In this document: piece by piece, positions 14,103 to 49,085 of the stretch
Numbering within the stretch: position 1 is the stretch's first letter
Layout: the number at the start of each line of letters is the position of its first letter
Source of the DNA: Bryopsis sp. KO-2023
Lineage: Eukaryota; Chlorophyta; Ulvophyceae; Bryopsidales; Bryopsidaceae
Assembly: GCA_030272585.1 (NCBI GenBank)
Contig: BSYQ01000008.1
Span: forward strand, 3,162,001 to 3,226,000
Direction of reading: 5' to 3'
DNA length: 64,000 nt
Translations under genes and position numbers: made by a program
Notes under the pieces: model-generated
Seen by the model: the letters and a program-made list of their open reading frames with translations, nothing else
Database searches by the model: none
Told to the model about the DNA's origin: nothing

Positions 14103-17100
14103 ATGAAAAGGCGTTCCTCTGCGATCGGTGTTTTGATACTGTCTCTATCGTTGTTTGGGCTGGTTGGTTCGTATCCCAACGGCGCCGGTTCATGCGATAG
14201 CCCGGAGAAGAGACATGGGGCGGGTACAAAAGGAGATGGAGGATATGTTTTGAAAGTCGTTTCTGATGAACCGATATTGCCCAACAAAGTGAGTCCAATT
14301 TCTGTGAGGCTCTGATTGGATCGTTCTGTTTTTATTGTGGGAGGGTTAGTATGGTATTAGTCAGCCTTCGGTGTTTTCGATTTGGGAAGACGGAAATATA
14401 TGGAACGAAAAAAAAAAACTAAAACTAAACTTCTAGGATTTCGGATAGTCGATGCAAACCGCTGAAAATTTTGATTTACAGAATGGGTGGGATAATTTTA
14501 GGAAAAAAAAATAATATATATATTTTCTTTCTATAATGTTCGGGGAAATCAAAATGAATCCTAAAAAATTCGGAATGCTACATTGAGACTTTTGAAAAAT
14601 GATAAAGAGTATGTATTAACATAATAGCATTTTTTATTTTTTCATTTGGGGGGGGGGGGGGGGGGGGAAGGTGAGAATTCTTCCAAAGAAAGGAAAGAAA
14701 CTAAAATAAAAAATGAGTTACAAACGTGTGCTTGTGTGTATCACAAAAAACTCTGTGATCATTTCCTGTGTGATGGTGCATTTGTTTTTATCACACCAGT
14801 ATTTACAAATGATTTTTTTTCCATTTCTTTTGGTAAAGAAAGTGGACCTTGTCTTGTCTGGAGAAGGCGGCAAAACTTTCAAAGGATTTCAAATCATTGC
14901 TGAGACGGGCTCGTTCGATGACTCCAAACTGCCGGATGGTGTGCAATTGAATACCGCAGATTGCATCTTGGATGGCAGAGTTACGCATACAACCAAGGTG
15001 ACTGTTCTGTATGAATGGCAGCGTGAAGTGGGGGGGGGGGGGCTTTTTTAAGGAAGAAAACAAAATCAGGGAAACTGGATGTGTGAAATAATTTAGAGCA
15101 AGTTAATTCAAAAAATACCAAAAAAGAAAAAAGAGTTGCTCATGGCACTCACCCCCAAAACAGAAGAAGAAGGAGGAAAAAACAAAGGAAATTAAGGGGT
15201 TTCGTGGTCCGAAGAATTGAAAGTGGGATTTGAAAAAGAAAAAACTATCTCTTTTTTTTTTTCTTTTTTTTTTTGAATTTCTTGATTTTTTAATTTTTTT
15301 TCAAATGCCAGACTTTTCTTTGAAATCAAAGATCTTTGGTGGGGTTTTTTCCAGGCTGACAAAGAATCTGTCACCGTCCCTTATAAAGTGCCCAAACTCC
15401 CAGGGACTGTGAAGATCACTTACTATGTTGTGGAAGAATTCAGTAAATGGTATGGTGACGCTGAAAAAGTTCTATCGTCAAATTTTCAGTTTTTTAGAGC
15501 ATGTGGGGTTATATTCAGTTGACCATAACCTTTTCCCCCAGAGTGCATGGATTTATAATCACCCCAAAAACTATTGGGCAAATCCCCCGCCCAAAAAGAA
15601 AAGAAATAATAATAATTAGCAATAAGAACTAAAAGAAAACCTCCCCCAGAAATATAAATTTTGTGACTTGAGAAAATAATTCTGCATGCAATATGTATCT
15701 TTTTTTCGACCTCGAGTTTGCTATACCCACCTGCATTAAAAAAATCGATGTTGCACCCTGTTTTTGTTAATTTAAAATATATGAATATTTTTTTTCTTTT
15801 CTTTTAAATTATTTGGCCTTTTGCAGGTATGGTCCACTGACACTCCAAATCCCCGTTTTGCTTCTGACATCGGATTCCACAGCTGAACCCGAAACTCCAC
15901 CTGCAAAAGCAGCCAAACCCTCCACAACAGAATTAGAGGAGGGAGGAGACCAAGCAGAAGGGCCCATGGCGGAGCAAGAGCAAAAAGAAGAAAACAAGGA
16001 AACCGTGACTAACGACGAGAAGAAAAAAACGCTTCAAAGGGTGAAGAAAAAGATCCTTTCGGTTTTCAATGGCCAGTGCACGGAGTCTCCGATTGAGGGC
16101 TACGATTGTGTGAAGGAGGTATAGATAAAACACACCAACAAGAAAAACAAAAAAGAAAAACACAGATGATCTGAAAATAACACCGAGCCTGTTTCGTTAT
16201 GGGTTATCCTTTATTGGTTTACGTTTGGAAATGTTTCCTCTTGTTTTTCAAATGAGGAATGATTTTCAATTTCTTTCATTATTTGTTTTAATTTTTTTTT
16301 TTGGGGGGGGATCCGTTTCGTTTAGTAGATCAAGCACATATATGTGGTTAAATAATATTTTTCACAAAAAAAAGCAAACTTGACAGTGCCCCCTTTCGAA
16401 GTTTCTGCTGATTATATGCCCCTTTGTTTTGTTTTTTTGTTTTTTTTCTCTTCTCCATGCGGCTGAATTTCCAGTTCACCGATTTTTTTTCGCTCCATTG
16501 GAGAGTGGGCGAGAAAACCCCCGGCGAGGGCCGAAGGAAACTCAGCCAAGCAGAAGAAGAAAATCCAGACAAGGTCCCAGCAAAGGGGGAGGTGTTGTTT
16601 GGATTGGAGGGTGAAACTGATGGCTGGGTTGCGATTGCTTTTCCTGAAGAGAAGGGGGAAATGGACCCTGCCGACTCCGTGATTGGATGGGTCGATGAGG
16701 ATGGGGAAGCTGTGGTGAAACCGTACAGAATTATGGTAAGATTCGCTGGAACACCTGAGCATTCCTTCACCCGTGTTTTCTTTGGATATCAAATTACCAA
16801 AGGAGTGGTCGTTTTTTCTTTTGCTGTAGTTTTGGTATTATTATTTATTAGTTTTTTCTTTAATGAAGGGTGAATAAGAGGAAGAATAGTGAGGATACAA
16901 GTGATAGTATCAATATTATAACAACCATTATTATTACTATCTTATGTTACTATTTTTTCTCGATTTAAAAAAAAAAAAAGCAACAGCTGGCAGTGTCATT
17001 TTGGAATGCGCCAGCGTCCCCGACCTCAGCAAGTAGGGAGATTTTTTTTTTTCATTTTTTTTTCCTAATTTATATATAATTTTTCTTGATGATTTTTGTT

Positions 17101-18599
17101 TACAGTGTAATGAAATCTTTCATAGCAAATTTTGATAGAATGTTTTCAAAAAATTATGAATTTACACAACAAAACAAATCGTTTTTTTTTTTATAGGACA
17201 AAAACGTTCGTTCCGATGATGTCGACGAAGGCCTCGGTGTCGAAGTGGTGGCAGCTTCGGAGGAAAACGGTGTCACTTTTATCGAATTCATTAAAGTTGC
17301 TGATGAGGGCAACGTCCCTTTCGACATCCAAAAAGATGTGCATTTGAACTACGCAATCGGGAAAGCGGACCGTCTGGAGGAGCACCCCTCCCACGGAAAA
17401 GGCTCCGTCACCTTGAATTTGCAATCCGGCCGATCGAGGAGGGTCAAATCAGATGCCGAGGTTTACTACATGGTGCACGGATCGTTGATGCTGATCGGAT
17501 GGATATTCTTCCTTCCACTCGGTGAGGATTCCCGCTTTTTTTTTTTTTGGGGGGGGGGGGGGTCTTTTTTCTCTTTCCCCTGTTGTGTTTTTTTCCCCAA
17601 AGGTTCGATGGTCCGAAACAGCGAACAGGACAGTTGAAAGAATATGTAACCTTACCATTTCGATCAATTTTAATAAAAAAATTTAAAATCCTCTCCCCAC
17701 CCAAGAGAATTTCCTTCAATTCCCGAATTTGTTGTCTCAACATCTGGAAATTTTTTGTGTAACATCCACAGGAATTTCAATAGCTCGTCACCGATGGACT
17801 TTGCCCATGTTGGGCGAATCTGGCTGGATCGACCTGCACAGATTTGTGCAGCTCTTTTCCGTCATTTGCATCATCACGGCCGTCATCATCGGCCTCAGCA
17901 GATTCGAAGACGTTCATTCCACCAGAGGGAAAGCTCACGTAACTCTGGCTGTCATCCTGCTGATTTGTCTGTTCGTTCAAGGGACCTTGGGCGTTTTTCG
18001 ACCGAAGCCGGACCACCCGAGGAGGGGCCTCTTCAACAACGTCCACGGATGGTTGGGGAGATTTCTGGCGGCTGGGGCGGTGTTGACGGTGCTCCTGGGA
18101 ATCGCAGCTTTGAAACAGAAACTGCGTGTGGATGTCACTGGATGGGTGAGTCGGCCACCCAATGTGCTGCTTCCTTGCTTCTCTTCTCAATTGTCCTCTG
18201 TTTTTGGTTCATCGCCCGATAGAATCAAAAAAAATAGGTATATACGTATTTATTACGAATGTTTCATTTACATTGGCAAACTTGCCCAATGAAGGCCGTC
18301 TACAACGAGGTGATTTAGCCCATATATATATATATATATGTATATGTATATGTATTTTCTCGGGATCAAAATGCACGCCTTGTTTACATCGTTTCTCTGT
18401 AAATTTGATGATTTTTTTTGTCTGTCAGGTCGCTTCCGTAATTTTGATATGTTTGTTTCATATCATATTGGCGTTCGCTGCGGAGCTCGCTCTCCAAAAG
18501 AAGAGAAGAGGTGGAAGTTCGAAGAGAATAGGGGAAGTGGATATGACAGACATGGGAACGAGAGTAGGATACACAAGGGGCCTGGATGAAGGCACTTGA
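14103..18599 (+). CDS. FRRS1: Reeler-DOMON-cytochrome b561 membrane protein, ferric-chelate reductase 1-like
   Basis: Predicted transmembrane haem reductase that passes electrons across a membrane, probably to ferric iron. Nine exons join in phase to 633 aa: 14103-14288, 14839-14997, 15355-15449, 15827-16118, 16475-16735, 16994-17032, 17197-17521, 17772-18145, 18429-18599. Order: signal peptide (start chosen at MKRRSSAIGVLILSLSLFGL), Reeler domain (YPNGAGSC; KTFKGFQIIAE), and a charged Glu/Lys-rich linker of about 70 residues. Then comes a DOMON domain (FSLHW; GWVAIAFPEE; DSVIGW) and a b561 core. The b561 core shows four candidate haem histidines: VHGSLMLIGW, DLHRF, GKAHVTL and VHGWLGR. The C-tail is short and basic. 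Human FRRS1 has the same order and similar length. The 39-nt exon 6 is the least certain. An earlier in-frame ATG at 13974 would bury the signal peptide. Confidence 0.9.
14648..14667 (+). repeat. 20-bp poly-G tract in intron 1 of the FRRS1-like gene
   Basis: Uninterrupted run of G directly after a T-rich stretch. Confidence 0.95.
18271..18322 (+). repeat. Short dispersed repeat, copy 1 (matches 38974-39028)
   Basis: About 52 bp beginning ATTTACATT and containing GGCAAACTTGCCCAA, followed by AAGGCCGT and GGTGATTT. The same blocks occur in the same order near 38974. It lies in the last intron of the FRRS1-like gene. Confidence 0.75.
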
Positions 18600-20549
18600 A
18601 ATATTTGCAGCGGGAATCGAAAAAAAAGCAAAAACAGAAAATAGGAGAGAGAGAAAAATAAATGGGTTTTTTTTTCTGATTTTCCAGAGAGGGCCAAAAG
18701 AGAAATATGGAGGTTTAGGCCAAGGAGCATTTTGAAAGCCCCTGGTTGCAGCATAGAGCTTTTTGTTATTCCTTTTTTGTGTGTTGGTCAAGCCATGGCT
18801 TTATGTTTTTGATCATTATTCTAGAGTGTGGTGGGGTGGAGCCTCTGGGATGGCGGAAATATGGTTGGTTTTTTTAGACAAGGATGAGTAAAAAAGAAGG
18901 ATTAGAGAGGGGGGGGCGGGGGGGGAAGGATAAGGGGCCCGGGGGGAAATTGGGGAATTGTGTTGCAAGAGTATGTGATATCTTGGGAAAGATATATATA
19001 CACACATATGTTTGAATTAAAATTTGTTCACACAAGGCCAAAAGGCCAAGTGCAGGCCGTTCACGGAAATGTGCTAATAGGCTGACTGTTAGGTTGAATC
19101 GCACCCTGGGAAAACCCCAAAACAGTCCCCTGCCCCTAAAGTAAGCACATCTGTTCCGTCACTGTGTAAATCCCGAAGCAAAGCCGCTGAAAATATATGT
19201 CTTTTGAATGTACAGGATTTCAGAAGCAACAACAACAGAAAGTTTTTTTTTCTATTTAAAAAAATAAAGGAAACAGATGCCGTCATGTCACAGGCTTATC
19301 TTGATCGCTTCACATCTGATGGATATGCAGATGGATTGTTATCGTTCAGGTTCAATTGGTGATATGCTATTCGGTATATTTTTTTTGTATGTTTCATATC
19401 GTTCCAATGGAGAGTTCCCTTTTTATGATCAAAGAGACCAGCAGAGGAGAAGAAAAAAAGCTGACAATAAAGTTCACTCCAGACACAAAAAAAGAAACAA
19501 GATCAAGATCGATTTCTTGAAAGCAAATTTGACATCGTTTAGTGGATTTTTTTTGGGGGGGGGGAAGGATATTTGTATTGTGAAAGAAAGAAAACTGGAA
19601 AAAGCATAAGAGGATAGCTATCCAAAATTTTTGGATCTGGACAGACATGTCCTAAATCTCTCCTCCACACGCTTGCAATTATTGAAATACGGCCAATCAA
19701 TTGTTTTTTCTTTTTGTTTTTTTGTGTGTGTGTTGCATGCAAAATGTCTTTTTTACCCAAGTTCGTTGATGAGCTGTGCGCTCACTTTGGCGGGCTTTTT
19801 TTCGTCGGTGTTTCTTCAGTTGTTTTTTTTTCCCCACTACCACTGAGAAAGTCCGCAAGTTGGCAATTGGGTTTTTTCACGAAACTTCTTGATATGAGAA
19901 TACGATCCAGATTCATCCACATGACAGATTATCATGAAGTTGATACAGCTATCGCTTGTCAATTTTGATCAATTCTCCCCTGCAAAAAAATGACCGTGAT
20001 TCCAACTCCAAAAAGAAGTGGGAGGCTTATGCACATGAAAATTATATTTAAATCTATGAACTATGCAAGGGCTTAACGCTGGTGATTTTTGTAAGGACTT
20101 TTGTTTAACCCACAGTGGCTGGAAAAATTAGAGCATTGTGTTGATCAATATTGCCGTTCACAGTTTTGCCCACTGTGGACAAAGTGATTTCAAAGTTTGG
20201 GGGAGTTTCAATTTTCTTTCTTTCACTACGGTAGACATTCAGTCTGCGCACCCAGTAGTTGATGCTCGGTGAACCAGAAATTTTAAGCTAAAAACTTGAG
20301 TGTGGAAGTGCAGTGGTACTTCAATATTTGTGATATTATTCTTCAGCAACAATCCAGAGAAAGGGAACTTGGTGTGTCAATCAGATGCATCCTGTTTGTG
20401 TTTTTGAATCTGAACCATGAACCACAACACCTCGGCTTTCCATCGCAAACACTCCTTGTGATTGCAGGGGCGACCTTCTGATGCTGTCGATCCACCCAAT
20501 GGCGAGTCGCCAAGTTTCCTTTTGTCCTGAAGGGAAGGCACCGCCAAAA
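18600..20549. other. Intergenic region, no supported gene
   Basis: An AATAAA near 18656 may serve the FRRS1-like gene. A 74-codon ORF starts at ATG 19744 (MSFLPKFVDELCAHFGG...) and ends at 19968, but nothing else supports it. T/G homopolymers occur at 19550-19564. Confidence 0.5.
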
Positions 20550-21868
20550 ATGTTTTCGCGTTTTAAGGCGCTAACGAAAATAAGCACGTTGTCCAAGATA
20601 GGCAACCGTCTCCGTTTTGAAACGATACCCAGCGTGCGTTGCTCTTGTCTCGCGCGCATCCCTCTTCTGCAAACTCGTTTTGAGCTCGTGCAACCGCCAT
20701 ATCAACAGCGAGACTCCTCAAAAATTTCGGACCAAGTCGTCCTCCAGTATCTGGATGTTCCTCTATCCCAGCGAGAATGTTCCAATTGCTGTCACATTAC
20801 AGAAACGGGTCAAACACAAGCAAGTATATGTTCTTCCACGAACCCCTGTCGAGCTACGCTTCTCTTGCGTTCTGAACACAACTGACTTCAGAGAAAAGTG
20901 AGTATTGCACCTGCGCAACTGACGAACCGAGGAAGATGGCAACCGAGGTCGTGAGATCGCGAAGGCGGCGGAACAGGAGCGGTACAGTGTGACGACCTTG
21001 CTCTTCTTAGACGTCTGCTGGCTCGTGAATCTCTGAGAGGGGAAAAACCTCTTGAACGACTTCCGTCGTCTTCGCTATAACTCTTCCTTTTCGAGGGACA
21101 TCATCGAAGAACAATCTTTGACACAGCTGTGCTTTCTGTGTTCCAGACTGGTTCGAGACCTATAGTCGGTCTCGAAACAGTTTCGTCTTCAGGAACGATT
21201 GGCGCGGGGAGACGTGGGCGGAGCCACCTGCCAACGGCAGAGTGGTTTACTATGGGGTCGGCCTCTGCCCAGATGTCGGCCCCATGAGCCACTTCTGGTG
21301 GCCGCACTCCGATGAGCCGGACTACGAGTTCACGGAGGGCGAGCCAAGCGAAGTGGCGGCCGTGCATGAAGAAGAGGAGTACATCTCCCCTGGTCCGCTT
21401 CCAAGGTAACGATGCAAAAGGGGAAAAAAAAAGGGACAAACAGACTGGTCGTGATTCCCCAAGTCAAATGATTGAATCGAGCTTCGTTTGGAATGGCCTA
21501 TCAGGAGCCCGAGTGTAGAGTCCCTTGCACAAGGCATGGGAAGCAACGAGGAGCTGTGCGGGGAGAGGGAGGTCGTGCAAGTCTTCCTCAGGCACATCCG
21601 TGGAGAAGACGAGGGAAACATCCCTGCTTGGATGGAAAGGACAGGAATCGACAAGGAGGAGGAAGAAGGAGCTGGCAGGCTGACGAGATCCAACAGCCTT
21701 GTGTCGATCGGAGACTGCATAACCGCCGTGGAAGTTCCCCCTGCTGATGTGGTGGACCTTGGCAAGAGGCCAGGAAAGAAAAGAGGTGCAAGGAAATGGC
21801 GGCGGCTGGCGGGTATCATTGGGATCGGAGCGGGAGTGGCTTGGGCTTTGTCCAAGCTGCGCAAATAG
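20550..21868 (+). CDS. Unrecognised protein, probably C-terminally tail-anchored
   Basis: Not recognised. A coherent 3' half can be built: an exon ending at 20897 (reads VYVLPRTPVELRFSCVLN), a 14-nt micro-exon 21011-21024, exon 21147-21405 (VGPMSHFWWPHSDEP, then an acidic stretch ending EEEEYISPGPLP) and exon 21505-21868. All introns are GT...AG and in phase. The last exon is rich in Glu and Arg and ends with basic residues, a hydrophobic helix (LAGIIGIGAGVAWAL) and SKLRK before TAG, the layout of a tail-anchored membrane protein. The 5' part is uncertain: MFSRFKALTKISTL from ATG 20550 is in another frame from the 20897 exon, so an unplaced intron is needed. Part of the first exons (20660-20884) is duplicated at 46353-46620. 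Confidence 0.5.
20660..20884 (+). repeat. Dispersed repeat/duplicated segment, copy 1
   Basis: Shares ordered blocks with 46353-46620 on the same strand: CCCTCTTCTGCAAACTCG then TTTTGAGCT, CAGACTCCTCAAAA or its variant, CTGGATGTT, ATCCCAGCG, and CGAGCTACGCTTCTCTTG followed by GTTCTGAA. Confidence 0.8.
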
Positions 21869-22174
21869 GTCACAGCGAGCAGTCCACGTGGTTTTTTTGT
21901 TTTTGTGCTTGTTTTTTGTTTTTTCCACGTGGCCAATCCTGCTATTCACCCCAAAAAAAAGAAATCAAACAACATCCTCCATTCCGAAATTTCATCGCCA
22001 CCTCAATCGCGCTTGATTCGATGCTGGGGGCGAGGGTGCCTTCGATCGCTGGAGCTCTTCCTGGACGGAAACCCCTTCGGTAATGGAACAGCCAACCATC
22101 GATGGCAATCGCACTCGTAAAACAAGCAAAGAAGTTTACTCGAGGCCAAATCAACGAAACCATGCCAATCGACA

Positions 22175-25100
22175 ATGGAGTGAGTTTCGCAGCACGAAAC
22201 AGAAACGAAACTAAATTCGGATTTATTCAGATTGCATGCTTCCGCGGTCCAAGTGGCGAATGAAACCAGAAGCGAACGCTTGGAGAGAGCCAAGGTGTGC
22301 CTCCCCCCCAAAAAAAATAAATAAAAATAAACTAGATTAAATTAAATGAATAAATTCTATATCTTTCAGTGGCATGTGAGATTTTTTATTTCTCAGAATC
22401 AGGGCAGGGTAATTGCTTCTATTCCTGTTAGGAAAAAATGAAAACATGATCTGCAATCAACAGAGACAAACCGCAGCAAAACCTCATGCAGCTCAATATA
22501 GATCAAAGATAGAAATGGAGGGGGTAAATACTTATGCATCGCAAATATCAAACTGCTGAATTTTCATGGCCATATATGTTTTTCCCCCAGGGTTACCCGT
22601 ATGTTCGGCCGTCATCCTCGTTCGTGTTCGTGAATGGCATAGCTGTAACTTTCGACGATTCTGCATGGAGGGGGGTCGAACACATGCGAGAAATAGCTAT
22701 CAAAGAGGAAAACAAGAAGCCATCGTGCAAAAAGTGAGTAGCAAAATGCATTCCATAAGAGACCAAACAGTCATTTATCAAGAGCACTTTAGAAAAATAA
22801 AATAAAGAAAAAATGATACCTTTTGGTTTGACAGAGGGGGGTTGTTTGGTTGATCATACTGAGTGTTGCTTTTTAGGGTTCAGTGTTTCTTTTTTCTCCT
22901 ATTGTTGATTGGAGGAAGAAAAAAAATGCAATGAAACATAGAGATGCATGTTGAAATGGCCAGCAGGCCTTGTCACGTAACTGTTATCCATATTATATGT
23001 GCAGGTTTATGTATGGATATATATATATATATACATATATATTTGTGTGGTTCAAAGCTTTGGCGAAACTGATGCTAAAAATTTAAGCTTGTCAATCGAT
23101 TGGTGGTTGCAGGCTGGGCGATCTTTTTGATTCGATGGGGGTATCTGAGGTTGTCCCAACAAACGAAAGCGAATATGTCAAAGTGTTGGCAATTGGAAGC
23201 AATGCAGGTCCAGAACAGCTCCACAGAAAATTTCCGGCAGATGTTTTCCCTGATGGTGTTGTGATACCTGTGAGTTGATTCTTGAAACTCGTTTTATATC
23301 ATTCCCCTAAAAAATAATAATATCATTTTTTGTCTCAGATTGAATTCTCTACCTCTGCTAGTTGGAATCGGGGTGAAAAACATGATAAGACTCCATTGAG
23401 TTTGAATAGTTATAGAGGTGTTTACTGGATTTTCATGTTTTTTTCTATTGTTTGGAACAAGGAATTCAAATTAAAACAGAAATTTCCTTGGCAAAAATGT
23501 AATCGAATTCTACCGACCAACGTCCAATTTTTTTTCCAATGCATATTTGAAATCGTTTTTTGAAACCAACACCAGGCAAAAAGCGCGTTTGTTTGGGATT
23601 CCTCCACTCCTGGTTTCCGACCGGAGCTTTCTGTTTTACTATTCAAGAATATATAAAAGAAAGCACTCCATCGACACACCTTTTTTCCTCTATGTTTTGT
23701 GATATCCATCACTTTTTTTATTTAAAAAAAAAAATTGATTTAGTTGACATTTCCTCCTTTTTTTTTGTTTTTTCGCTCTCGATCTCCGATGCGAAACAAG
23801 ACAGACGGTTCAAGGTGTGCTGCACGATTTCGACGTGGTATACGCTCCGTTGCTTTCTTCTTATGGATCTTGCACTGCCACTCTGGAGTATTCTCCCGGA
23901 GCCTCGGTAGGAATTTTCGTCACTTATTTGACCGACCCTCTGATGGAAAGAATGAACACCACCGAAGGGGCGTATGATCTGTGTGAGCTGTCCGATTTGG
24001 ATCTGGACTTGGGCATTTCGTTGGAATCTTGGAGGTGAATTGCTCTTCTCCAGGGGTTTTTTTAAATCGTTTTGTCTTTTCGTTTATGAAACATATTTAT
24101 GAAATACATTTCATCGTGGCAAAAAGTATTAGTTTTCTCCCTTTTTTTTTGGTTTCAAATCCCCTGGTTATTAGATCACCGGATCTGCATTCAAAGATCC
24201 CAGGAATCATTGTTTTTCTCTTTCTTAGGAGCAGTTCCATGATGACTTTCGTCTAACTTTCTATTTATTTTCTATTTATTTTTATTTTTGAAGGGTGGTG
24301 TGAGGGGTCAGACAAAATAATAATTGGTTAATATCGTATAACCAAATGACGATTCTCACATTCTCATTTATTCTTTCGACCAACCTGTCGACCCCCCAAC
24401 CCCCACCCCAAAAGGAAAAGAAAAACGTTTTTTGTGTTGACAGTTTTTTTTTTTTCTTCTTCAGGAATGGAGGAAAAGGAACAGAAAAATTGAACAGAAT
24501 TTACCAATACAATCACCAAAACGGAACGCTTCACATGCCTTCAACAGGTGCATTTATAAATTTATTTGTTTATTATTATTATCATTTTTTGCTTATGTGC
24601 TTTCTAGACTCTGTCAAGAATTTCCTTCTTTCGACATTCATATCTTTTGATCTGGGTTCTGGCTCCTTTTTCTTCTCCGAATCGTATCAGTAAAAAAAAA
24701 TTAATCGTCAAGAAAATATCACAATTTTTGTTCTCGTTGTCTGTTTTTTTTTATTGTTATTCAAGAAGGGAGGAAGAAGCATCTGGATAAGTTTTATTTT
24801 AAACAAATTATATGTTCTTGTGTTGATACTTCCAGGTTCCCCTGTAGCATTGAAAGCGATCGCAGCACACCACAGAGCATTTCCTGAATTGGACCAAGTC
24901 GAAATGCTTTCGTTGGTGAAAACCACTCTTTCAAAAGAAGCATCCAACGGTGAGTTTCCCCCCCACCACCTTTTTCCCCCCTGGAAAAAAAATAAAAAAA
25001 AATCATCCTTAATTGTGTGCATTATTTTGTCATCGTTTTTTTTGCCTTCTCAAGATCTCATCCCTTTTTTGTTTTACTTCTTGGATGTCTTTTTTTTAAA

Positions 25101-25484
25101 TAAAATTTCTGACAGACAGATCCCATCTAATGAAACGATATCGAACTGGCTACATGCATTTGAGAATGGCTCGAACACCACACACACCACAGACTTCCGA
25201 TCTTTTTTTTTTTTTTGGAAGAGGCCAGTCATGGCAATAGGAATGTTCACCCAAAAGTAGTTCTCGAAAGCAATATTTTTGGACTGAGCGGCGGGTGCTG
25301 GGTGATGTTTTCAGGCAGAGCTTCTCCTGTGGATTTGGACGACTGGATGCTGGAGTATTTGGAAAATGAACCCATCCGAATCGAGCTGGTGAAAAAACTC
25401 TCAAACCTTGCTCAGCCTTTCAAATACGAAAAGAGTGAGGTCCTCGCCACTCTGGGCGACGAGTTCTCCAAAAACACAAAATAG
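22175..25484 (+). CDS. Gamma-glutamylcyclotransferase-fold (AIG2/GGCT-like) protein
   Basis: Eight exons join in phase to 352 aa: 22175-22179, 22231-22294, 22591-22733, 23113-23269, 23805-24034, 24465-24547, 24836-24949, 25222-25484. The middle has the GGCT fold signature. A small glycine loop LAIGSNAGPEQL precedes a strand-rich core (GVLHDFDVVYAPLLSSYGSC, then GASVGIFVTYLTDPLMERM). The core ends in NTTEGAYDLCEL, where Glu of 'EG.Y' would be the catalytic acid. Relatives cyclise gamma-glutamyl amines or peptides to 5-oxoproline. Here the N-terminal extension (about 110 aa) and the C-terminal region (DLDDWMLEYLENEP...) are unlike simple GGCTs, so substrate is unknown. The only in-frame Met upstream gives a first coding exon of five bases (ATGGA). 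The gene starts about 300 bp after the preceding plus-strand gene. Confidence 0.65.
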
Positions 25485-26711
25485 GAGCCAGCCGAAATTG
25501 TTTTTGAGAAAAAAATGGGGTGGGGGGGGGAAGTGGGTTGGAAAGATGCCGTCTGGTATAAAACTGAAAAAAAAACGTGTGGAGACGTATGTATATATTT
25601 TTTTAGTATTTGTTCTTTTCGGGAAGAGGAAGGGTGGGTTGGTCCATGGTGTTTGAAAGGAGTCCATAATGATTCCTATTTTTTATTTTTTATTTTGGGG
25701 GGGGGGTTGGGATGGGGTGGGGTGGATGAGGACTCAAGTTTGTTGGTTATGTGTATTTTCTTTGTTACTCTGGATTGAATGTGTGTGTTTTTTACAAAAA
25801 AGCCAACGAATGAAAATGTGAGACGAGTCTAATTAAAACCTTCACTTGAAAAAGAAATAAGCGCTACCGATTGTTTGAATTGTTTTTCCGATATCTTTAT
25901 GTCGTCGTGTCCTTTTGAGAGATCGAGACTCTAAATTCAGAACCTCTTTATCTCTCTAAGTGTGTTGACTGCATTATTGTAAATGAATTGATGCCTAAAA
26001 AAAAAATGCTCCGGACATGCTCGCTTGCTTGAAAAACAAATTCGTACCACAGGGAAGACTTATGCATACTTAGAGAGGGAGTAGGATTCAAACCTATGAG
26101 TCATAGGCTATGACCTCGAGATATTGAGAAAAAAAATGAGGAAAAGTCAATCAATCAATCAAAGAGGAAAAGTCAATGTGAAGAAGAGAATCTCCTAATC
26201 AGATTCAATCTCAAAGTGGCCACCTTGCCTTTGGACCTTTGATGATGGGATTCAACAAAGCATTAAAAAAAAACCATGAAACAAACAAGAAACAAACACT
26301 TAAAAAATGATGTGAGGCTGTCATGGGGAAAAGATACCCCTCCAAGACTGTGTCGTTTTTTTGTGTGTGTGTTTTTTTGACAGAGTCTCCCATGCACGAA
26401 ATCAGAACTGAAATCAGAACAATACAACCCCCATTTTTCTCTAAGAAATTTGGAAGGAATCTTCCCATGAGTCTGATAAGACTTATTCCTTCTCCGAAAA
26501 AACTTTGTCAGACGAATCCCCAGAAAGTCCCCCTAGGTTTAGAAACCCCATTCCCAAACTTTTCAAAATTGTTGACCGAAGAAAAGAAAAAAGTACTTTT
26601 TTTTGGTGCAAAAAAGAAGTCCGAAAAAGCCAAGAATGTAACAGAATTAGCAGCAATGGGAGGTTTTACCTGTCCAGGCACCCTCTCCAAGAAATCATTC
26701 TCAGTGTGGGT
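25485..26711. other. Intergenic region between convergent genes
   Basis: T/G homopolymers near 25687-25720 and AT-rich sequence. Around 26085-26130 the minus strand has a T-loop-like GGTTTGAATCC, but no complete tRNA fold was found. No supported exon. Confidence 0.5.
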
Positions 26712-27566
26712 TCAAAACGCCTTCAAAAACCTCCAACTGAGCTCAAAAAATACGATCAAATTCACGATCCACATCAAGATTGCAACTGTGGGTGCTTTCC
26801 CCCCATTGAAGTTGGTGTATCCATAGGCAAGCATGGACCTTCTGACAAACACCAGCCTGGCCGCCCTTTCATCCAAATAAGCCGCCACCGAAGGCAATAC
26901 CCACCCAACCCACAAAACCGCGAACGACATCAGCCGTCGGCAAGGGTTTCTGGAAGGATTAGTCATTCTGTGGAAGGTCTGCTGATCATTGCTTTCACCC
27001 AGCCTCACTAGCGACGTCCCGAATTCATCCATTACTCGTTCCACTTTCCCGAAAAAGGTTTTCCATCCGCGGTCCACGAAGCAGCGATCGCACAGCGGAA
27101 GAACGAAAGCGGCGGCCGTCGACGCCGACAGCGCTTGAGCGAGCAAGTGAACTCTGAAAGAGACGGTGCACAGGAAAGGTTGGGCGACCAGGTTGACGAT
27201 CAACATCGCAAGAAGCGTCAGGTCGGCGCCAGCCGTGTGGCTACCAGCCAACTCTCCGAACTGCGATCCAACGTACGCGATTGTGATCGTCCCACCCACA
27301 CGACACGCGAACAGAGCCAAACCTCCACATCGCTTGTAGAAATCAGGCTTATTGCACAGAGCGAAATAAACGACGAGCTTTTCCACGCCGCAATAACCCA
27401 GCAGAAACAACGGCAGCGGTCGAAACCCCAGAACGCCCACGAACAAAGGTATGAGAATGATGAAAACAGGTCCAGCGACGACCGCTCCCGTTACCACCCT
27501 CCTCGACACAGTCGTCACCCACCACCATTTCCAAAACTCCTCTTCCAAGTGCTGCCTGTAATCCAT
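26712..27566 (-). CDS. Intronless multi-pass membrane protein, unrecognised
   Basis: A single uninterrupted reading frame of 284 aa from ATG 27566 (MDYRQHLEEEFWKWWW) to a stop at 26712. It has about six hydrophobic segments: VVAGPVFIILIPLFVGVLGF, LPLFLLGYCGVEKLVVYF, LTLLAMLIVNLVAQPFLC, ALSASTAAAFVLP, LMSFAVLWVGWVLPSVAAYL and PTVAILMWIVNLIVFF. A charged loop lies between the fourth and fifth. I do not recognise the family. It is richer in G+C than its surroundings and, unlike nearly all neighbours, has no intron, which could reflect recent retroposition or transfer. It is head to head with the phosphatase-HAD gene, 292 bp apart. The 27135-27956 plus-strand ORF is its antisense shadow. Confidence 0.65.
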   Translation of the reverse strand: MDYRQHLEEEFWKWWWVTTVSRRVVTGAVVAGPVFIILIPLFVGVLGFRPLPLFLLGYCGVEKLVVYFALCNKPDFYKRCGGLALFACRVGGTITIAYVGSQFGELAGSHTAGADLTLLAMLIVNLVAQPFLCTVSFRVHLLAQALSASTAAAFVLPLCDRCFVDRGWKTFFGKVERVMDEFGTSLVRLGESNDQQTFHRMTNPSRNPCRRLMSFAVLWVGWVLPSVAAYLDERAARLVFVRRSMLAYGYTNFNGGKAPTVAILMWIVNLIVFFELSWRFLKAF

Positions 27567-27858
27567 CGTAACCCGCGCGGCGTGCCTAGCCACGTTTCGT
27601 CCGAAAAGAGCGCGCAAGCATATTCATGCGAACTGTGGCAAAAGCACGTGAAAATACACGCCCCCTGTTACGTGGCTGAACAAAAAGGCCAATCCGCCCG
27701 CTGTTCTATCAGCAGCATTGTTTACGTCGCTGACCACGTGGTTTTCTACCAAAAAGGTTCCCGATTTCGGCACGAACGCCACCTCACTGTAGGAAAATCG
27801 ACATTTCAACCCCACCACCTAACGAGAAGACGAGTTCTTCGGCTCGTCGACGAGAAAA

Positions 27859-30800
27859 ATGAGAAGCGCCACCCAGGTTGTCCCCGGTATGAGTTTGCAA
27901 ATCCCAGAAGGAAAAAAAAAATCAGGGATTCGCCGTCTTTTTGGGAAGGCGGCTAATTTGCACTGGATGGCATCTGATTCTGAGTTTTCCACCCAATCAG
28001 CTGGCTTTTCATTTCCACTCATTAGTAAAGGGAATAAAGCAGATATTTTCAAATTCATTGAATAGTTACCAATCCGATCAGGCATTCGTCATGAGGTTCA
28101 GGTTTTTTTTTTTCGATTTGTGGATTTCATGCAGGGCTATTTATAGGCTGTGTGGAGACTGTTGTTGATTTTTGTGAAATCAAGAAGGGAACCCATGTGT
28201 TGGTAAGTTTCTTCCATACTGTACTTTTTTTCCATGAATGACTCGCACACATGTAAGATATATCGTTGATTTTCTTGCCTTCGCCTCTATGAGCATGGAA
28301 TTTTTACCACAGTTTGCAGCAAAAACTCCTTAATACATTATAGGAAAATATCTGAAATGGGTAGCACGTATATATGTATATGTGTATTCCTGTTTTTCCT
28401 TCAAAATATCTGTAATGGGTAGCATATATACACATACATATATTTTTTTCTATTTTCATTTCAATGCCAGCCTATCCCTCACAGAATTACCTCGTGCTTG
28501 GGTGCAGCATTTTTCATTTTGCTGGATCCGCACATAGACTGACATCAGTTTTTTCTTTCTGTTTGCGTGAAATTTTCCCAGACCATTTTGAACGAGGAGC
28601 TGGTCCCGGTGCTGGGCAATGACATTCGACACATGGTGGTGCATGCGTTGGACATGGAGGAAGCCATGCTGTTGAATCATCTGGACGATTGCATCACTTT
28701 CATCGAAAATGCCTTGTCGGAAAAAGCATTGGTTTTGGTGCATTGTTTTGCTGGAGTCTCGAGGAGCTCAACGGTGGGTTGGATGGATTAGGAAAACAAC
28801 CGATTGGGTTATTTTACCGTTAGGAAAAAATTGAAATAAAGTTGAAAAAAAAATATACTGGTCAACATGAATGTGTAAAAATAGATGTCTATATCTGTCC
28901 ATTGTATGCTGACCTTTTTATGGGCTCGCTTTCTTTTTTTTGGGCAAAAAAAAATCGGGGAAAAAAAGAGTTGATTCTGAAAAGGAGGTTGGGTTACGGT
29001 TTCGAAAAAATGAAAAAGAAAATCAACAACAAGAAACCGATCAAGATTATCGAAGAGTACCATCGCTTGCAAAGCAATCAAATTTTTTTTTCAAGTAGAA
29101 ATAAATGAAGTACTTGTTGGTGTGCAAACCACCAGGTGGTCATTGCTTACTTGATGAAAACGAAAGGCTGGACTTTCAACACCGCTTTCTCTTCTCTGAA
29201 AAAAACCTACTCCCCTGCCCACCCCAACAGTGGGTTCATCGAGCAATTGCAAATCTTCGAGAAAATGGGGTGTAGAATCGTGACATCGCATCCAGAGTAC
29301 AAAAGATGGAAATTGAAAGCGTTGGGCAACAAATTTTTATCAGGAGATTTGGTGGAAGCGTCTGACATTGAGAACGCCCCCAACGAGGAAGACGTCGCCC
29401 TGTCGCAAGTGAGGTTTTATCTTTTTTTTGTGTAATTTCCTGGTAGATAAACCGATTAATCAAGCAGATAAAAACACCGAAAACGATCGAGATTGTCCCT
29501 TTCAAAAAACAATTAAATAAAACAAAATACTGACCACCAGTTTGTTTTTCGAGATGTTTTTTTTTTTCCCTTTCCCCCAAAAAATATAAAATACACGGAC
29601 ACACATATATATATATGAAATCTTTTTTTATTTCAGGATTCTTTGTTCAGATGTCGAAAGTGTGGACGGTTGTTGGCAACTTACCAAAACCTGGCCCCTT
29701 TGAATCCCAGCGGAGACGAACCTCATAAGAGTGCATCGTCGGTTTTCGTGGAGCCTCTTAGCTGGATGAAAAATGTCACCGAAGGCGCTCTCGAAGGAAA
29801 AATATATTGTCCACAATGCAACACCAAATTGGGTTCATTCAATTGGTCAGGTGGGAAGAATATGTGAAAATTCCTGCCCCACTCCCCCCCCCAAAAAAAA
29901 AAAAGAAGAAAATAATTATTTAATTAAAACAAAATAAAAAATATATATTAACTTTCGCGAAAGCCAGCAAAGTGTAGTTCTTTGTTAGTGCACTCCGAAT
30001 CAGGAGAAAAAAAAGGAAAAAAGAAACGGTGATTTGTATTCAGGCGATGGGTTTATGGATTTCCATCCCTTGCTAAGTTCTTTTTGACTACGTTTCCTAT
30101 TTCCATGTGTGTGTTTTCTTTCTTTTCCCTTTTCTTTTCCCTTTTTTCCCTTATTTATATTTGTTTATGTTGGGTGGATGTGTCAGTTCAGGTATAAAGG
30201 ACGAATCTGGAATGTGGGTGACCCCGGCGTTTCAGCTCCATCTGAAGAATTTGGACGAAGTTTCGTCGAAGCCTGTAGAAAGCTTGAGCCATCGTGTCAG
30301 ACAACCCAGGTTTGGCTCCGCCCCAAAACAGCCAGAAAACCTTGCAAAACAAGGTAAAACTAAGGAAAATTATAATATTTATAAAAAAAACAAACAATGA
30401 ATTTAATTGAACAAGTATCTTTCGAACAATTTTTTTTTGCCAGTATTTTTTTTTCTTTAAACATGTGTACACTTCTTCTTGAAAACAGGGTGTTTTCTTT
30501 TCTTTTTGTTTTGTCATAATTTCCTTTTTTTTTATTTTTAGATTCTGGGTCACGAGGTTTCGACTATTTTATTTTCGACTGTGATGGGGTGTTGGTGGAT
30601 TCGGAGAGAGCGTCTTGCGAGGCTTTGAGGCTGGGCATTCTGGAAGCCACCGGGGTCGACATTCCGCATCAATTTCCTACAGATTTTAATGAAGTTTTTG
30701 GAATGGACATTCGAACTTGTCTGGAGCATTATGCACGAATCTATGAAAGGTGAACGGTCGCAAATTTCCACACAAGAAAAAATAATAATAATTCGGGCCT

Positions 30801-31788
30801 CGTTGACCCGTTTCATCAGATTCATCAGCTGATCAATTTCGTACGGGAAAAAATTGGAAAAAGTGTGTTCATTCCGGAAAAAAAAGTTTAAATATTCCCC
30901 CCCCCCCCCCCTTCGGCAGCAATCCACAGAAAGAACGATCCATTAAGAAAAAAGCAGGAATATCTTCCTTCTTGTTGTTTCTGTCCCCGATTTTTTCTAT
31001 TTGTTTTCAAATAAAGAGTCTTTTCAAGCTTGATTTTTCCTTGTTCTGTTTTTTTTTTTTTTTGCATTCGATGTGTGTCGTCTTTCCTATTTACAGAGCT
31101 GACTGGATGGAAGACATAGAAGCACTGCTGACTAAGGTCTCCATTGCCAAGGAGAAAGCATACAAAGAATTGACAGCGGCCGGAATTTCAGCGTTCCCTG
31201 GAGTATCCGAGTTGATCAAAAAATTGATGGCTTTTGGGGTGCCCTTTGGAGTTGGCTCCTCAGGGTCTCCGGAGAAAATCCATCACAATCTACAATCAGC
31301 AGGCCTGTCTGGTTTATTTCCTGACGATAAAATCGTGAGCGCTAAAATGGTAAGCCTTGCTTTTCTTTTCTCTTTTTGTTTTGTGTTTTTCTGCATTTTC
31401 CCGACACAAATTTGTTGAAAATCGAAATCAAAGTCGAAAACTGCACACTGGGTGGCTGTTTTCCCAATCTGAACAAGGATATGCAACAGTAGTAAGCTTC
31501 CCTGTTTTTTTTTTGGTTTATTTTTTTCATACACAGGTGGATAGAGGGAAGCCAGCGCCGGATGTCTATATTGAGGTGCTTCAGCGGCTGGAATGCACAA
31601 ACCCGACTCGGGCTCTTATTATTGAAGATTCGATAAATGGGTTGAAGGCTGGGGAAGCTGCTGGGGCCTACACTGTTGGGATAACCACCTCTTTGCCCAG
31701 AGAAAAATTGGAGCCTCATGCTGATAGAGTGATCGACATCATGAGCGAGCTAGAAATTTTTGTATCTACTGCAGATAAAAGAGGATGA
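27859..31788 (+). CDS. DUSP12: Fusion: YVH1/DUSP12-type dual-specificity phosphatase + zinc ribbon + HAD-superfamily hydrolase
   Basis: Nine exons join in phase to 549 aa: 27859-27886, 28135-28202, 28582-28773, 29136-29408, 29637-29850, 30192-30353, 30542-30749, 31097-31349, 31537-31788. Residues 1-190 form a dual-specificity phosphatase (VVPGLFIG start; P-loop VHCFAGVSRSST with catalytic Cys/Arg; PNSGFIEQLQIFEKMG). Residues about 190-300 form the YVH1 C-terminal zinc domain (RCRKCGRLLA; VEPLSWMKNV; GKIYCPQCNTKLGSFNWSG; WVTPAFQLH). In yeast and animals YVH1/DUSP12 acts in 60S ribosome maturation. The rest is a HAD hydrolase like phosphoglycolate or sugar-phosphate phosphatases. It has FDCDGVLVDSE (nucleophile Asp), GSSGSPEK (motif II), RGKPAPDVY (motif III Lys) and IIEDSINGLKAG (motif IV). 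The HAD part has no Met of its own before FDCDGVLVDSE, and the junction splice (30353/30542) is in phase. Reading through that intron would instead end the phosphatase at TGA near 30400. Confidence 0.85.
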
Positions 31789-32682
31789 GGTTGAAAACTG
31801 TGTGTGTAGAAAGATCAAAATTAGATCGATTGGCACTGATTCAGGAACATAGAATGATGGGCTCAATGCAGTTGATGAACTTTGTCTTATCATGAGAGAT
31901 GTTAATTTTTCACAACTTCTTTCTTCTCCAGAATATGTATGGTCACCTGCCTGTCTTTTTTTTCCAATCTACTGTCCCAAAAATGAGCATTTTACAGTGA
32001 GGGAATTTTGCAGTCAAATTTTTAGACAGACCCTATCAATTTGGGGTCCATATTCCGTTTGCTTAATGAAGAAAGGAGGCTGGCTATTTTTTTCCTTTTA
32101 AATGCATTTTCGTATGAAGGCTCTCAACAAATATAAAACAAACATGAACCACCCCTTCTTGAAAAAAATCCCTACTAAAATGTACTCAGAAAAAGATAGT
32201 GCTACAATTCAGCAAAATTCATCAGAAAATCTAACCTTCACTGTCATTTGAACCGGAAAGCAGTGTGTTGGAATGAATAAAATCAATACCAATGCAGCAA
32301 ATAGACAAGGTAAGATATTCTTCACAACAATATAGAAGCCACACACAATCGATTGAAATTCAAGCCTTGTTTTTTTTTATTCTTACATTGGCCAAATGTG
32401 TTTGACAAGAACCTTATTGCATCTGAACAATCAGATGCCTGCTGAAAGATCTGCCTTTTCCATAAAAAAAAGTTGGCAGCCCATCCTTTCGATTATTCGA
32501 AAGCTGTACATATCTAGTACAACCATTGCCAAGATATATGAATTCTCAAGTAAAAATTTCCAAAAACCATGATTTGAGACCATAAAACAAAATAAAAAAC
32601 AGCCTCTCTTCGCTCGCTGATTGATGCGCGAAGGTTTTATTCATGTGCAAGAAAAATCGTTCGTCTCGTAGTCGGCAAATAT
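31789..32682. other. Intergenic region between convergent genes
   Basis: AT-rich, no supported exon. It holds the 3' flanks of the phosphatase-HAD gene and of the secreted repeat protein. Confidence 0.6.
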
Positions 32683-34175
32683 CTATGGGTCGACGCTGGT
32701 GAGTGAGAAGTCAGACCTGACTCCACTGTTGTCAGTTCCTTCGGCGTTCGCGGTGCCCTTGAAGGTACCGGTCGACAAAGATGGAGTGGACAGGAAGGTT
32801 CCATCGCTGGTGGCCGCACCGCTACCGGCACCGCCGAACTGGAAGGCAGACGAACCATCCCCGACGCTGGTGCTGAACGAGCCTCCATCAACTGCGTCAA
32901 ACGTCCCAGGGATATGAGAAACACAACTCGACAGGGTCCGCACAGCAGCAAGCAAAAGATTCAAGTTGCATGACTGCCAGTTTTACAGTGGAGTTTAGTG
33001 GGATGTGGGAGGGTTGGTGTCAACTGATATCTGATGGGTGGATCATATTGCATGATATTACTCACGAGTTCGGACGTCCGCAAATCCTCCGAGAGTGGCC
33101 TGTCCGGCACCGGTGTTGCCCTGGGCGGCCACATTTTGGTTGCCTTGGGCAGCGGCGAGACCACCGTTGGTCTTGGTCGAGAGAGTGGAACCAGAGCCGT
33201 TGGAAGAAGTGGAGCCAGATCCTACTTGAGTGATTCCACTTCCAGTGATCCCGGAGCTTGAGATAATACCTGTTCAGAATCGACACAGAAGATTAGTTCG
33301 CAATGGTCCCACAGGTTAAATATACATCAGCAAAACAGCCGTTTCGCATCCGCCGTCCTTACCAGGAGTGACAGGACCAGGGATGCCAACAATAGGTCCA
33401 GGTCCGGGGATGATTGGGATTGGTACGCCGGGGACTGGAGTGGGAACTGGTGCAGGGATAGGTGCAGGGATAGGGGCAGGGATGGGAACGGGGACTGGTG
33501 CAGGGATTGGTGCAGGGATTGGTGCGGGAACAGGGACGGGAACTGGGGCAGGGATTGGTGCGGGGATTGGTGCGGGGACTGGTGCGGGAACTGGGGCGGG
33601 GACTGGGGCGGGGATTGGTGCAGGGATTGGTGCGGGAACTGGGGCGGGGACTGGGGCGGGGACTGGAACAGCGGGGACAGTGGGAACTGGCGTTCCGGGT
33701 CTCGTTGGCCTTCCGGAGCCACTGTTGCCGCTTCCTTTACCGTTTCCAGAACCGCTGCCTTTGCCGTTTCCAGAACCGCTGTCTTTGCCGTTTCCTGATC
33801 CGCTGTCTTTGCCGCTTCCTGAACCACCTGGGGCTCCGGGTCTTCCAGATCCACTGTTGCCGCTGCCTTTTCCGTTTCCTGAACCGCTGCCTTTACCGTT
33901 TCCTGAACCACCTGGGCCTCCGGGTCTTCCAGAACCACTGTCGTCGTCATCACCGTTGTCGCTGCCCTTGCCCAAAGGCCTCAAGAATTTCTTGCCTGAA
34001 AACAGAGACACCACTGAGTGTTCCACACCGAAAATAACTGCAAGACGACAGCGATTCCATAAGCAGAGCTTCCCACTGTGCAGTAACGCATCTTACCATA
34101 GGTAGACAGAGAGCGATCGGCATATGCGCAGCTGCACAAAGCCAAACACAACAGCACGCAAGCCCAGCGAGACAT
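32683..34175 (-). CDS. Secreted low-complexity protein: signal peptide, Gly/Ser-Lys/Asp region, Val-Pro-Ala-Pro repeats, Gly/Ser/Thr tail
   Basis: Four exons in phase: 34097-34175, 33363-33995, 33066-33269, 32683-32891 (about 374 aa, stop TAG). The first encodes a cleavable signal peptide, MSRWACVLLCLALCSCAYA, then DRSLSTYG. The second encodes GKKFLRPLGKG, an acidic patch, then roughly 90 residues of GSGNGKGSG-type repeats with GRPGGPGG/GRPGAPGG. This is followed by about 75 residues of alternating Pro with Val/Ile/Ala (PVPAPIPAP units). The last two encode Ser/Thr/Gly/Asn/Gln-rich sequence (GITGSGITQVGSGS; SVGDGSSAFQFGGAGS; TSVDP end). Composition fits an extracellular-matrix, cell-wall or mucilage structural protein, probably O-glycosylated. 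No enzymatic domain is visible. Codons favour C/G at third positions, as in highly expressed genes. Confidence 0.8.
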
Positions 34176-36027
34176 ATTTGCTTTCGACGAAGAAAACGTT
34201 TTTCTTGGTAGACTGTATGAGTTCTTGGCAAAACTTTTGCAAGGATACGTCCAGTGCCCCAGCGATTTATACTTACTCAGTGGCGGTACAAACGTACGTG
34301 CTCTGCACTTGCCGGGACCTCTCAATATCGGAGAGTAGCACATCTGAACGCACTACAGAATCAGCGGTGCATGACACAGTGATCGTGTGTCTCCGACAAT
34401 GCGCGGCTCGCGTCATCGGCACTCCTTGTACCTGTGTGCTTATCCGATCTCTTTTTCAATTTTTTTTTCCCCAAAATCATCAGCTGTGTACCTATGTGTC
34501 CGAGGGAGGCGACAGATAGGCGCTGGAGGATAACCGCTATAGGTCATACTCTCCCACATCCTCAAGCACAGACACCTTTTAGAACCCTTCCAGTTTTCCC
34601 ACCATAATGAGATCCGATGCGGCCACGACACCTATCGCGCTAGGCAAAAATAATGGTACTGCGCAATACTCTGAGCATGCTCTTGGGTGGAACACGCCAT
34701 CCAGTTGGGTGAAAATGATGAGGGACGAAGTACCTTTGGTGTTGGATGGGGTAGTACGGCTGTGCATTACATGTTGGATGCACAGAAGGTTGGCCAAGGT
34801 GATTGGGCCACCGTGGGTGGTGTAATTTATGCGTCGGGCTAATTTTTGCGATTGTGAAAAAATAGTGTCGCAGAAATTCAACCTACGCAAACGGAAAAAG
34901 CTACCAAGCTGTTGCGGAATCAATGCTCGAGCGTACGTGCTCCGCTAGCCGCCATTGCATCGACCACCTCCCCCCATACTCACTGAGAAAGTGCGAATCT
35001 TGCGCACTTGAAATCTTTCACGATAAAGAAAATAAGAAGTAATGGGTTGCGAATGGGTCGACTGGGGCACATAGGCTACAAAAGGGGACTCTTGCGGTGC
35101 ACTAGGAAATGAGCTAGGAAGAGACATGCACCCAGTTCAGATGCTGCACTGTTCAAAGCCTTGTTTCAAAGTTTTTTTTTTCCTCAAGTGACAAGGAACA
35201 CTTGCAATTAACTGCTAGTGAAGGGCTTGCATTGTGAAAAGGTGGCAGTTTCGAAAGGTTAGGGAAGTACTGGAACTCAGGAGCTGGGAGTAAGAGACGT
35301 CTTTGTAAAAAGTGTTGACTTCGCTGCATTAGCTATTCCAAATTTGTTCCAAATTCACTACAAGGCGAACCGCTCCATGCAGCCGGTCATGCAAATGAGT
35401 GATGCGCTTTTTGTTATTATTCTATGAATTCCACTATTTGGACAACGTCTCGACAGTATTTCTGAGTTTCTGAATTTCGAGCGTGTATCTCTGGTGTGTG
35501 GTGTCCAAAGCTGTGGATAAACACCCCATGTGTTCAAGTAGTTTTCGGAAAAACGTCGGTCTGTAAGCTTTGTCCTTGTCAAAGCTAGCTGGCTCCAGGG
35601 CTAATTTCTCAGAAAACGTATGCCACGATGGACAGAAACAAGCAGTCCTGAGAGTACCTCAGATCCTTCCATCACAAACTCTCAGACTTGCGAAAATAGC
35701 ATTCAGAGAATCATTGCTGCTGATGTATTTCAGATCCCTTTATATCCCCATTCATTCCCGTTCTGATTGTGGTGTTCAGCACTGCTGATGATGCCTGTAA
35801 AAAACAATTGCCATCAGGATCTTGCTGAAGAAGATGGCCCAACTCCATGCACATAGGAATTCCTTCTACCATCCCATTTGTCCAGTTTCTGAAGACGAAT
35901 CTGTTGGAAATTTCTCAACGTGCACGCAGGGGGGACTCGGACCGTGGCATCAGAAATCACAGAGAAACAATTGCCGCAGTTTCCTCAGCAACGGATGACT
36001 GTTTTCATTGCAAAGCTGGAGTAAAGA
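34176..36027. other. Region without a supported gene
   Basis: 5' flank of the secreted protein gene, then moderately GC-balanced sequence with several 60-115-codon ORFs on both strands (for example 34579-34923 minus, 35847-36146 plus). None is recognisable or joined by convincing splice sites. Confidence 0.45.
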
Positions 36028-47940: not shown

Positions 47941-48189
47941 GACAGATCTTGCTGTGAAACAGATCTAACTCTCCCATCTTGAGTTTGAAATCAAAAAGGA
48001 AGAAAAAACCATTTTAGAATCTTTTTTTGGGGGGTCTTACTTGATCGTCCCCACCAACAGCGCCCACCGAAGCCCAAGTGCATCCTTTAAATCAGCCAGT
48101 CCCCTTGGAATGCTTTCCAAAAACCACTATGGATGTCACCCTCCATGATCCCAAATCAACACTCCAAATCAAATCAAATCTTCTCCTCG

Positions 48190-49085
48190 CCGGGAAGCCA
48201 CAGATGCAGGGTTATCAACCCCACCTCATTCCTTGGATCAGGATCGCAGCTCATCAGGATTTTTGCTGCCCTGTCCACCAACCAGATCATCACCTTCAGC
48301 CCCCAAGCCAGGCTCCAGGATTATGCTGCCCTGTCCATCAACCAGCTCATCGATTCTTCCTGGCCTGACCAAGGTATTTCCTGTTCTGTTCATGTCATGC
48401 ACTCCAAGACATATCGCCCCCACCTCATCCCTTGGATCAGGATAGCAGCCCATCTCTCTTCAGCCCCAAGCAAGGCTGCAGAAGCATTTTTGTTGCCCTG
48501 TCCATCAACCAGCTCATCGACCCTTCCTGGCCTGACCAAGGATTTTTCCTCTCCTGCTCATGTCATGCACATCAAGACACCACAGGTTCGGAGTTATCAC
48601 CCCCACCTCAGCCCTTCGGTCAGGATTGCAGCTCATTTCCCTTCAGCACCCAAGCCAGGCTGCAGGAGGATTTTGCTGCCCTGTCCATCAACCAGCTCAA
48701 CAACTCTTCCTTCCCTGACCAAGGCTTCTTCCTGTTCTGTTCATGTCATGCACTCCAAGACATATCACCCCCACCTCAGCCCTTTGATCAGGATTGCAGC
48801 TCATCTCCCTTCAGCCCCAAGCAAGGCTGCAGGAGGATTTTTTACTACCATACCATTGTTATTGATCTGGCCATCGGTTCCCTTTTGAAAAACCACCTCC
48901 TGGAAATCTGTAAACACTCCATTCCTTCTTCATGTTCAGTTTCTTCTTTTCCTTCCCTTTTTCTTGTTTTTTTTTTTCCAACTTTTTTTTTTCTCTTCCT
49001 TACCTTTTTTCACCAGCCAGCTGCTACTCATCGACTCTTTCTGGTCTGATCAAGACTTTTTCCTCTCCTGTTCATGTCACCCAAT
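48190..49085. repeat. Degenerate tandem array, about four to five units of 170-200 bp
   Basis: The block CCACCTCA...GGATCAGGAT recurs at 48221, 48419, 48603 and 48771. Each is followed by GCTGCCCTGTCCATCAACCA, CTTCCTGGCCTGACCAAGG and TGTTCATGTCATGCA or close variants. A fifth, partial unit (49005-49085) overlaps the 3' end of the coiled-coil ORF on the minus strand. Confidence 0.85.

Follow-up and report, generated by a model that had tools for sequence, protein, structure and literature searches.

The gene described here lies at positions 27859–31788 on the plus strand of a 64,000-nucleotide stretch of contig C8 from Bryopsis sp. KO-2023 (the window). The initial annotation had proposed nine exons of consistent phase, and this model stands: the coordinates are correct, the introns (187–379 bases) are bounded by GT and AG in 8/8 cases, and the predicted spliced product is an unbroken frame of 549 amino acid residues ending with a TGA at 31788. 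The predicted protein begins with a dual-specificity phosphatase (DSP) of the YVH1/DUSP12 type; next comes a YVH1 zinc domain, from which some 30 linker residues lead to a HAD hydrolase.

Exon 1 (27859–27886) carries the ATG start and encodes residues 1–9 plus one base, with which the DSP domain begins. The domain continues through exon 2 (28135–28202) and exon 3 (28582–28773), which holds the catalytic core, and is completed in exon 4 (29136–29408) together with a YVH1-type extension (HPEYKRWKLK). Exon 5 (29637–29850) encodes the YVH1 zinc domain. Exon 6 (30192–30353) encodes its end (DESGMWVTPAFQ, without the CxC of yeast YVH1) and then the interdomain linker. Beyond the junction intron, intron 6 (30354–30541), exon 7 (30542–30749) contains HAD motif I (D325-x-D327, 30577–30585), and exon 8 (31097–31349) contains the presumed cap region and motif II (GSSGS, with S436 at 31257–31259). 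Exon 9 (31537–31788) completes the gene with motif III (K471, 31549–31551), motif IV (E496-D497, 31624–31629) and the stop codon.

The initial annotation had placed a DSP P-loop first, the zinc domain second and a four-motif HAD hydrolase last, an order that was confirmed by motifs, Pfam matches and PDB matches. In a domain search of the 549-residue product, DSPc (PF00782, residues 15–139, E 1.9e-24) and HAD_2 (PF13419, residues 323–514, E 2.9e-24) both scored above their curated Pfam cut-offs. The Hydrolase model PF00702 (E 8.8e-24) overlaps the HAD region, and Tc-R-P, a DSP-like toxin-system model, overlaps the DSP with 27.7 bits against a cut-off of 27. No Pfam model exceeded its cut-off over the zinc domain. 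Residues 1–305 found their best PDB match in yeast YVH1 (6n8m_Y, 1.5e-33), in two stretches that cover the phosphatase and the zinc domain, and the next in human DUSP12 (4jnb, 3.8e-22). The P-loop of the DSP is intact (HCFAGVSRSS from residue 86, with C87 at 28744–28746 in exon 3), and the same exon encodes D56 (28651–28653), the putative general acid. The roles of D56 and C87 as catalytic residues, and those of the HAD motif residues, are putative assignments from general features of DSPs and HADs. The predicted YVH1/DUSP12 phosphatase domain is active-looking.

The HAD half possesses all of motifs I–IV (D325/D327, S436, K471 and E496/D497) and matches HADs of the beta-phosphoglucomutase type in the PDB (4eek, 7.6e-18; 2fdr, 3.8e-14). 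Among the 25 families shown, the only cut-off passed was that of the broad TIGR01509 (54.1 bits vs 29.4). The score for the beta-phosphoglucomutase family TIGR02009 (79.4 bits) fell below its cut-off of 153.35, and every equivalog among these 25 families was likewise missed, so the substrate cannot be named. The matches to HAD_2 and TIGR01509 suggest that motifs I and II are separated by a C1-type cap. The best explanation for the HAD half is a predicted class IA phosphatase nearest to the beta-phosphoglucomutase/sugar-phosphatase group.

As had been proposed from the first reading, the HAD half has no start codon of its own. Its frame is closed upstream by a TAA at 30517, and the next ATG (30703) lies downstream of catalytic motif I at 30577; between this stop and the motif the HAD reading frame contains no ATG. 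The HAD half thus depends on an exon further upstream, unless translation begins at a codon other than ATG. Exon 6 is such an upstream exon and is in phase with the HAD exon.

The zinc domain aligns with residues 276–344 of yeast YVH1 (phmmer, E 3.6e-14 for the sequence). Seven cysteines of this domain are common to yeast and human YVH1 (PMC9404827, available text), and two zinc centres are predicted for the yeast protein (PMC6393466, available text). Four of the seven are kept in Bryopsis according to the phmmer alignment: yeast C232, C235, C307 and C310 correspond to C193 (29652–29654), C196 (29661–29663), C245 (29808–29810) and C248 (29817–29819), all encoded on the plus strand in exon 5. 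The positions of yeast C280, C324 and C326 hold A, D and S, that of H248 holds leucine and that of F283 holds V, and Trp329 is kept. Yeast residue numbers were counted from the alignment and agree with the published Trp329 and F283. The cysteines that remain would make up one predicted zinc site, and the missing set would have belonged to the other; the pairing of the cysteines and the role of H248 as a zinc ligand are likewise putative. The initial annotation had named a YVH1 zinc ribbon, and the domain is indeed present; that description was silent on the loss of three of the seven cysteines. With four of seven conserved cysteines, the protein is, judging from the alignment, a degenerate YVH1 rather than a canonical member. 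Alternative exon 6 acceptors through which the cysteines could be regained were ruled out, and since NWSGIKDESGMW equals the yeast CxC stretch in length, the missing cysteines are not a product of mis-splicing.

YVH1/DUSP12 proteins share with the Bryopsis gene the HCxAGxSRS loop, the YVH1-type extension and a zinc domain with RCRKC, FVEPLSWM, CPQCNTKLGSFNW and GMWVTPAFQ. They differ in lacking the C-terminal HAD added here, and in retaining the three cysteines, the H248-aligned residue and the F283 that are replaced here. The yeast YVH1 chain ends about 20 residues past the aligned part, where the HAD sits in our protein. HADs of class IA variant 3 (4eek and 2fdr; TIGR01509 and TIGR02009) share the four HAD motifs, whereas here the HAD is the C-terminal domain of a YVH1. 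NF009025/PRK12361, a 546-position model with a DSP-type region, is also a phosphatase fusion but has a different partner, and MtlD (7ocn) joins a HAD to a mannitol-1-phosphate dehydrogenase, again another partner than here. In none of the matches listed was a HAD joined to a YVH1 zinc domain, and no description of the YVH1/DUSP12–HAD combination was found in the available text of the open-access literature. In Plasmodium, YVH1 and HADs are listed as separate proteins (PMC4256932, available text). Searches with six exact short peptide patterns taken from a single sequence, a weak probe, confirmed no relatives of the DSP–zinc half in viral_contigs; a search of the same kind and the same weakness confirmed none of the HAD half in genome_contigs. 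On searches whose eukaryotic coverage was this genome and the PDB, we regard the YVH1–HAD pairing as a novel domain combination in which the YVH1 part is degenerate.

A second copy of the fused locus lies inverted about 120 kb away on contig C8, with matches spanning C8:3067942–3070738. It shares the DSP–zinc–HAD order and the intron pattern of the window gene, and it also contains the ATG and donor of exon 1. It lacks 166 of the 273 bases of exon 4 together with the acceptor of intron 3, as well as 42 bases containing HAD motif I, and carries frame-shifting indels and an in-frame stop. Judging from these lesions, the second copy is a decayed pseudogene. Since the copy is a distinct locus that has diverged, an assembly artefact is an unlikely source of the DSP–zinc–HAD order, which predates the duplication. 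SASSVFVEP and IKDESGMW are found in the second copy too, so that the loss of the cysteines probably also came before the duplication.

Both copies form part of a segmental duplication (19263–34307, without strand assignment) that was matched in pieces, with its main partner inverted at about 3.065–3.076 Mb of C8. Between 24591 and 27678 no piece longer than 150 bases was found in this main partner; for the interval 25613–26451, a match of 70% lies at another place on C8. The stretch 31730–34307 matches a further copy at about C8:3085050–3087700, and the duplicated material on C8 extends over about 3065000–3088000.

A comparison of the window gene with its copy shows 84 differences over 1412 aligned bases in the exons and 296 over 1881 in the introns. 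If only the window copy were constrained, half of the intron divergence of 15.7% would be expected in the exons, that is 7.9%, and 5.9% was observed. The observed value is close to what a window copy under constraint and a partner that drifts would give. The changed codons comprise 47 non-silent and 27 silent ones, and the changes fall on codon positions 1, 2 and 3 at 28/471, 20/470 and 36/471, a weak bias (p = 0.07). Such codon changes and position bias fit a drift of the copy and, on their own, would show little constraint.

Exon 6 differs between the copies at two of 152 aligned bases, both silent, while its two flanking introns differ at 66 of 487; three indels also alter this exon in the copy, a deletion of 10 bases and insertions of 3 and of 2. 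The part of the exon that encodes the linker differs at 2/81 bases (p = 0.003 vs the full intron rate), which alone would be no more than weak support if the copy has evolved without constraint from the start, as about half of the neutral divergence is then expected in exons. Intron 6 itself differs at 36 of 187 aligned bases and keeps both splice sites in the second copy. Their retention is not special, since the copy preserves 15 of the gene's 16 splice dinucleotides and lacks only the acceptor of intron 3, which is deleted.

Retention of intron 6 had been proposed as a means to switch between a phosphatase-only form and the fused form. The reasoning on the product is correct: translation would continue for 15 further codons to a stop and yield a 327-residue protein ending in KQGKTKENYNIYKKNKQ. 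The switch itself found no such support. The retention tail, i.e. the first 48 bases of intron 6, differs between the copies at 17 positions, compared with 2/81 in the adjoining linker, and thus looks like plain intron; by eye from the alignment, the same-frame stop arrives earlier in the intron of the copy. The few changes in exon 6, set against those in its flanking introns and in the tail, speak for a single fused protein rather than for a conserved switch in splicing. Retention may still occur, and nothing marks the tail as a product.

The genome searched consists of 91,088,769 bases in 28 contigs. No other YVH1 zinc domain was detected at E values up to 10, the five matches falling in the gene (two) and its copy (three); this search proceeded exon by exon on the best candidates, and a very divergent domain could escape it. 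Five of the eight DSP matches lie outside the window gene and its copy. The HAD query gave seven matches at E up to 0.001, three in the gene and four in the copy, and nothing else. The window gene thus appears to be the sole YVH1 detected in this genome. A gene that we read as ribosomal P0 is located at C8:209093–209821, and the exons of a second RL10P_insert gene, at C1:10425069–10425503, are read as Mrt4. Both names are putative and rest on general features of these proteins. With genes read as P0 and Mrt4 present, this genome seems to contain the known partners of YVH1. A further L10-like match was found at C9:3923395 and a weak one at C3:6583054 (E 0.36).

In yeast, the zinc domain of YVH1 releases Mrt4 by itself and the phosphatase is dispensable (PMC9404827, available text). 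The available text of PMC6393466 gives the function of the phosphatase domain as unknown, and that of PMC9731860 gives no direct substrate as firmly established. By analogy, the zinc domain of the Bryopsis protein would dock on the cytoplasmic pre-60S subunit and displace Mrt4, which would let P0 and the stalk assemble. The HAD would ride at the C-terminus as a passenger enzyme, itself a phosphatase, putatively acting on a small phosphometabolite. Being encoded by the only YVH1 detected in the genome, the protein most likely does the job of YVH1. From the sequence we predict with considerable confidence that one gene makes one fused 549-residue protein; that this fused protein has also retained YVH1 function is a prediction we favour only moderately.

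Three other readings of the locus were weighed. Two adjacent genes could be present, namely a YVH1 gene (327 residues) terminating in intron 6 plus an independent HAD gene with a downstream start or an internal promoter. Such an arrangement would agree with the stop that follows 15 codons into the retained intron, and an internal promoter could allow a HAD product to begin at M266 of exon 6, which shares the HAD frame. M266, however, lies inside the zinc domain, so that the product would carry a fragment of it, and after the stop at 30517 the HAD frame offers no ATG before motif I is reached. The proposed YVH1 tail, moreover, is the stretch that differs at 17 of 48 bases between the copies, and we regard two genes as unlikely. 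It is extremely unlikely that the window locus is decaying like its duplicate and is merely less advanced. In favour of this reading, the duplicate has frame-shifting indels, an in-frame stop and no HAD motif I, but the window copy is intact over nine exons and holds every catalytic motif looked for, and its exons diverge from the copy at 84/1412 against 296/1881 for the introns.

More weight, although still that of a minority reading, is given to a real fusion in which the YVH1 half no longer matures ribosomes, the DSP and zinc domains now serving to target or regulate the HAD. With the counterparts of C280, C324 and C326 replaced and V at the position of F283, the release of Mrt4 may be weakened or lost; in yeast, the change of F283 to L yields a dominant-negative variant (PMC9404827, available text). 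Against such a loss of function stand the kept Trp329, which in yeast YVH1 stacks on rRNA G1242 (PMC6393466, available text), the finding of a sole YVH1 zinc domain in the genome, and the retention of the genes read as Mrt4 and P0. Yeast lacking YVH1 grows slowly (PMC9404827, available text), which gives a reason to keep the function. A fused protein that retains it is accordingly the reading we prefer.

The fusion of two domains can hint at a partner in a pathway (the Rosetta-stone argument). The initial annotation had raised a coupling of ribosome maturation to small-metabolite phosphatase activity; such functional coupling could exist and is rated as quite unlikely. The version that we considered, itself very unlikely, is that the zinc domain would bring the HAD onto the maturing 60S subunit, where catalysis or substrate binding by the HAD would tune the release of Mrt4 and make stalk assembly responsive to the level of a phosphorylated metabolite, the loss of the zinc site being part of this rewiring. 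The C-terminal end of yeast YVH1 reaches Tif6 (PMC6393466, available text). A YVH1 that lacks one predicted zinc site in a genome that keeps the genes read as Mrt4 and P0 would offer a natural test of how much of the zinc domain is required. Changes of the cysteines destabilised the yeast protein (PMC9404827, available text), so that point mutants could not provide such a test.

Elsewhere in the window, an unbroken open frame of 303 codons (26715–27623, minus strand) lies divergent from the fused gene and matched no Pfam model at E values up to 0.01. The GC content of the window ranges from 0.34 to 0.50 in 2-kb steps. Long open frames on both strands at 33316–34105 cover a short-period, G+C-rich repeat (VPAPIPAP... 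/ GTGAGIGAG...) with several matches on the same contig. The region 48091–50143 looks repetitive by eye and contains long overlapping open frames on both strands, with a GC skew of −0.297 at 48001–50000. At 16412–18289, open frames with a DOMON domain (PF03351, 1.7e-6) followed by a cytochrome b561-like domain (PF03188, 2.1e-4), both just below cut-off, are perhaps one DOMON–cytochrome b561 gene. The chlorophyll a/b-binding family gave 107 exon-level matches in the genome, each above the cut-off, and two of these loci resemble green LHC proteins by eye. An exon of glycosyltransferase family 34 (PF05637, 1.5e-15) is located on the minus strand at 6166–6600.
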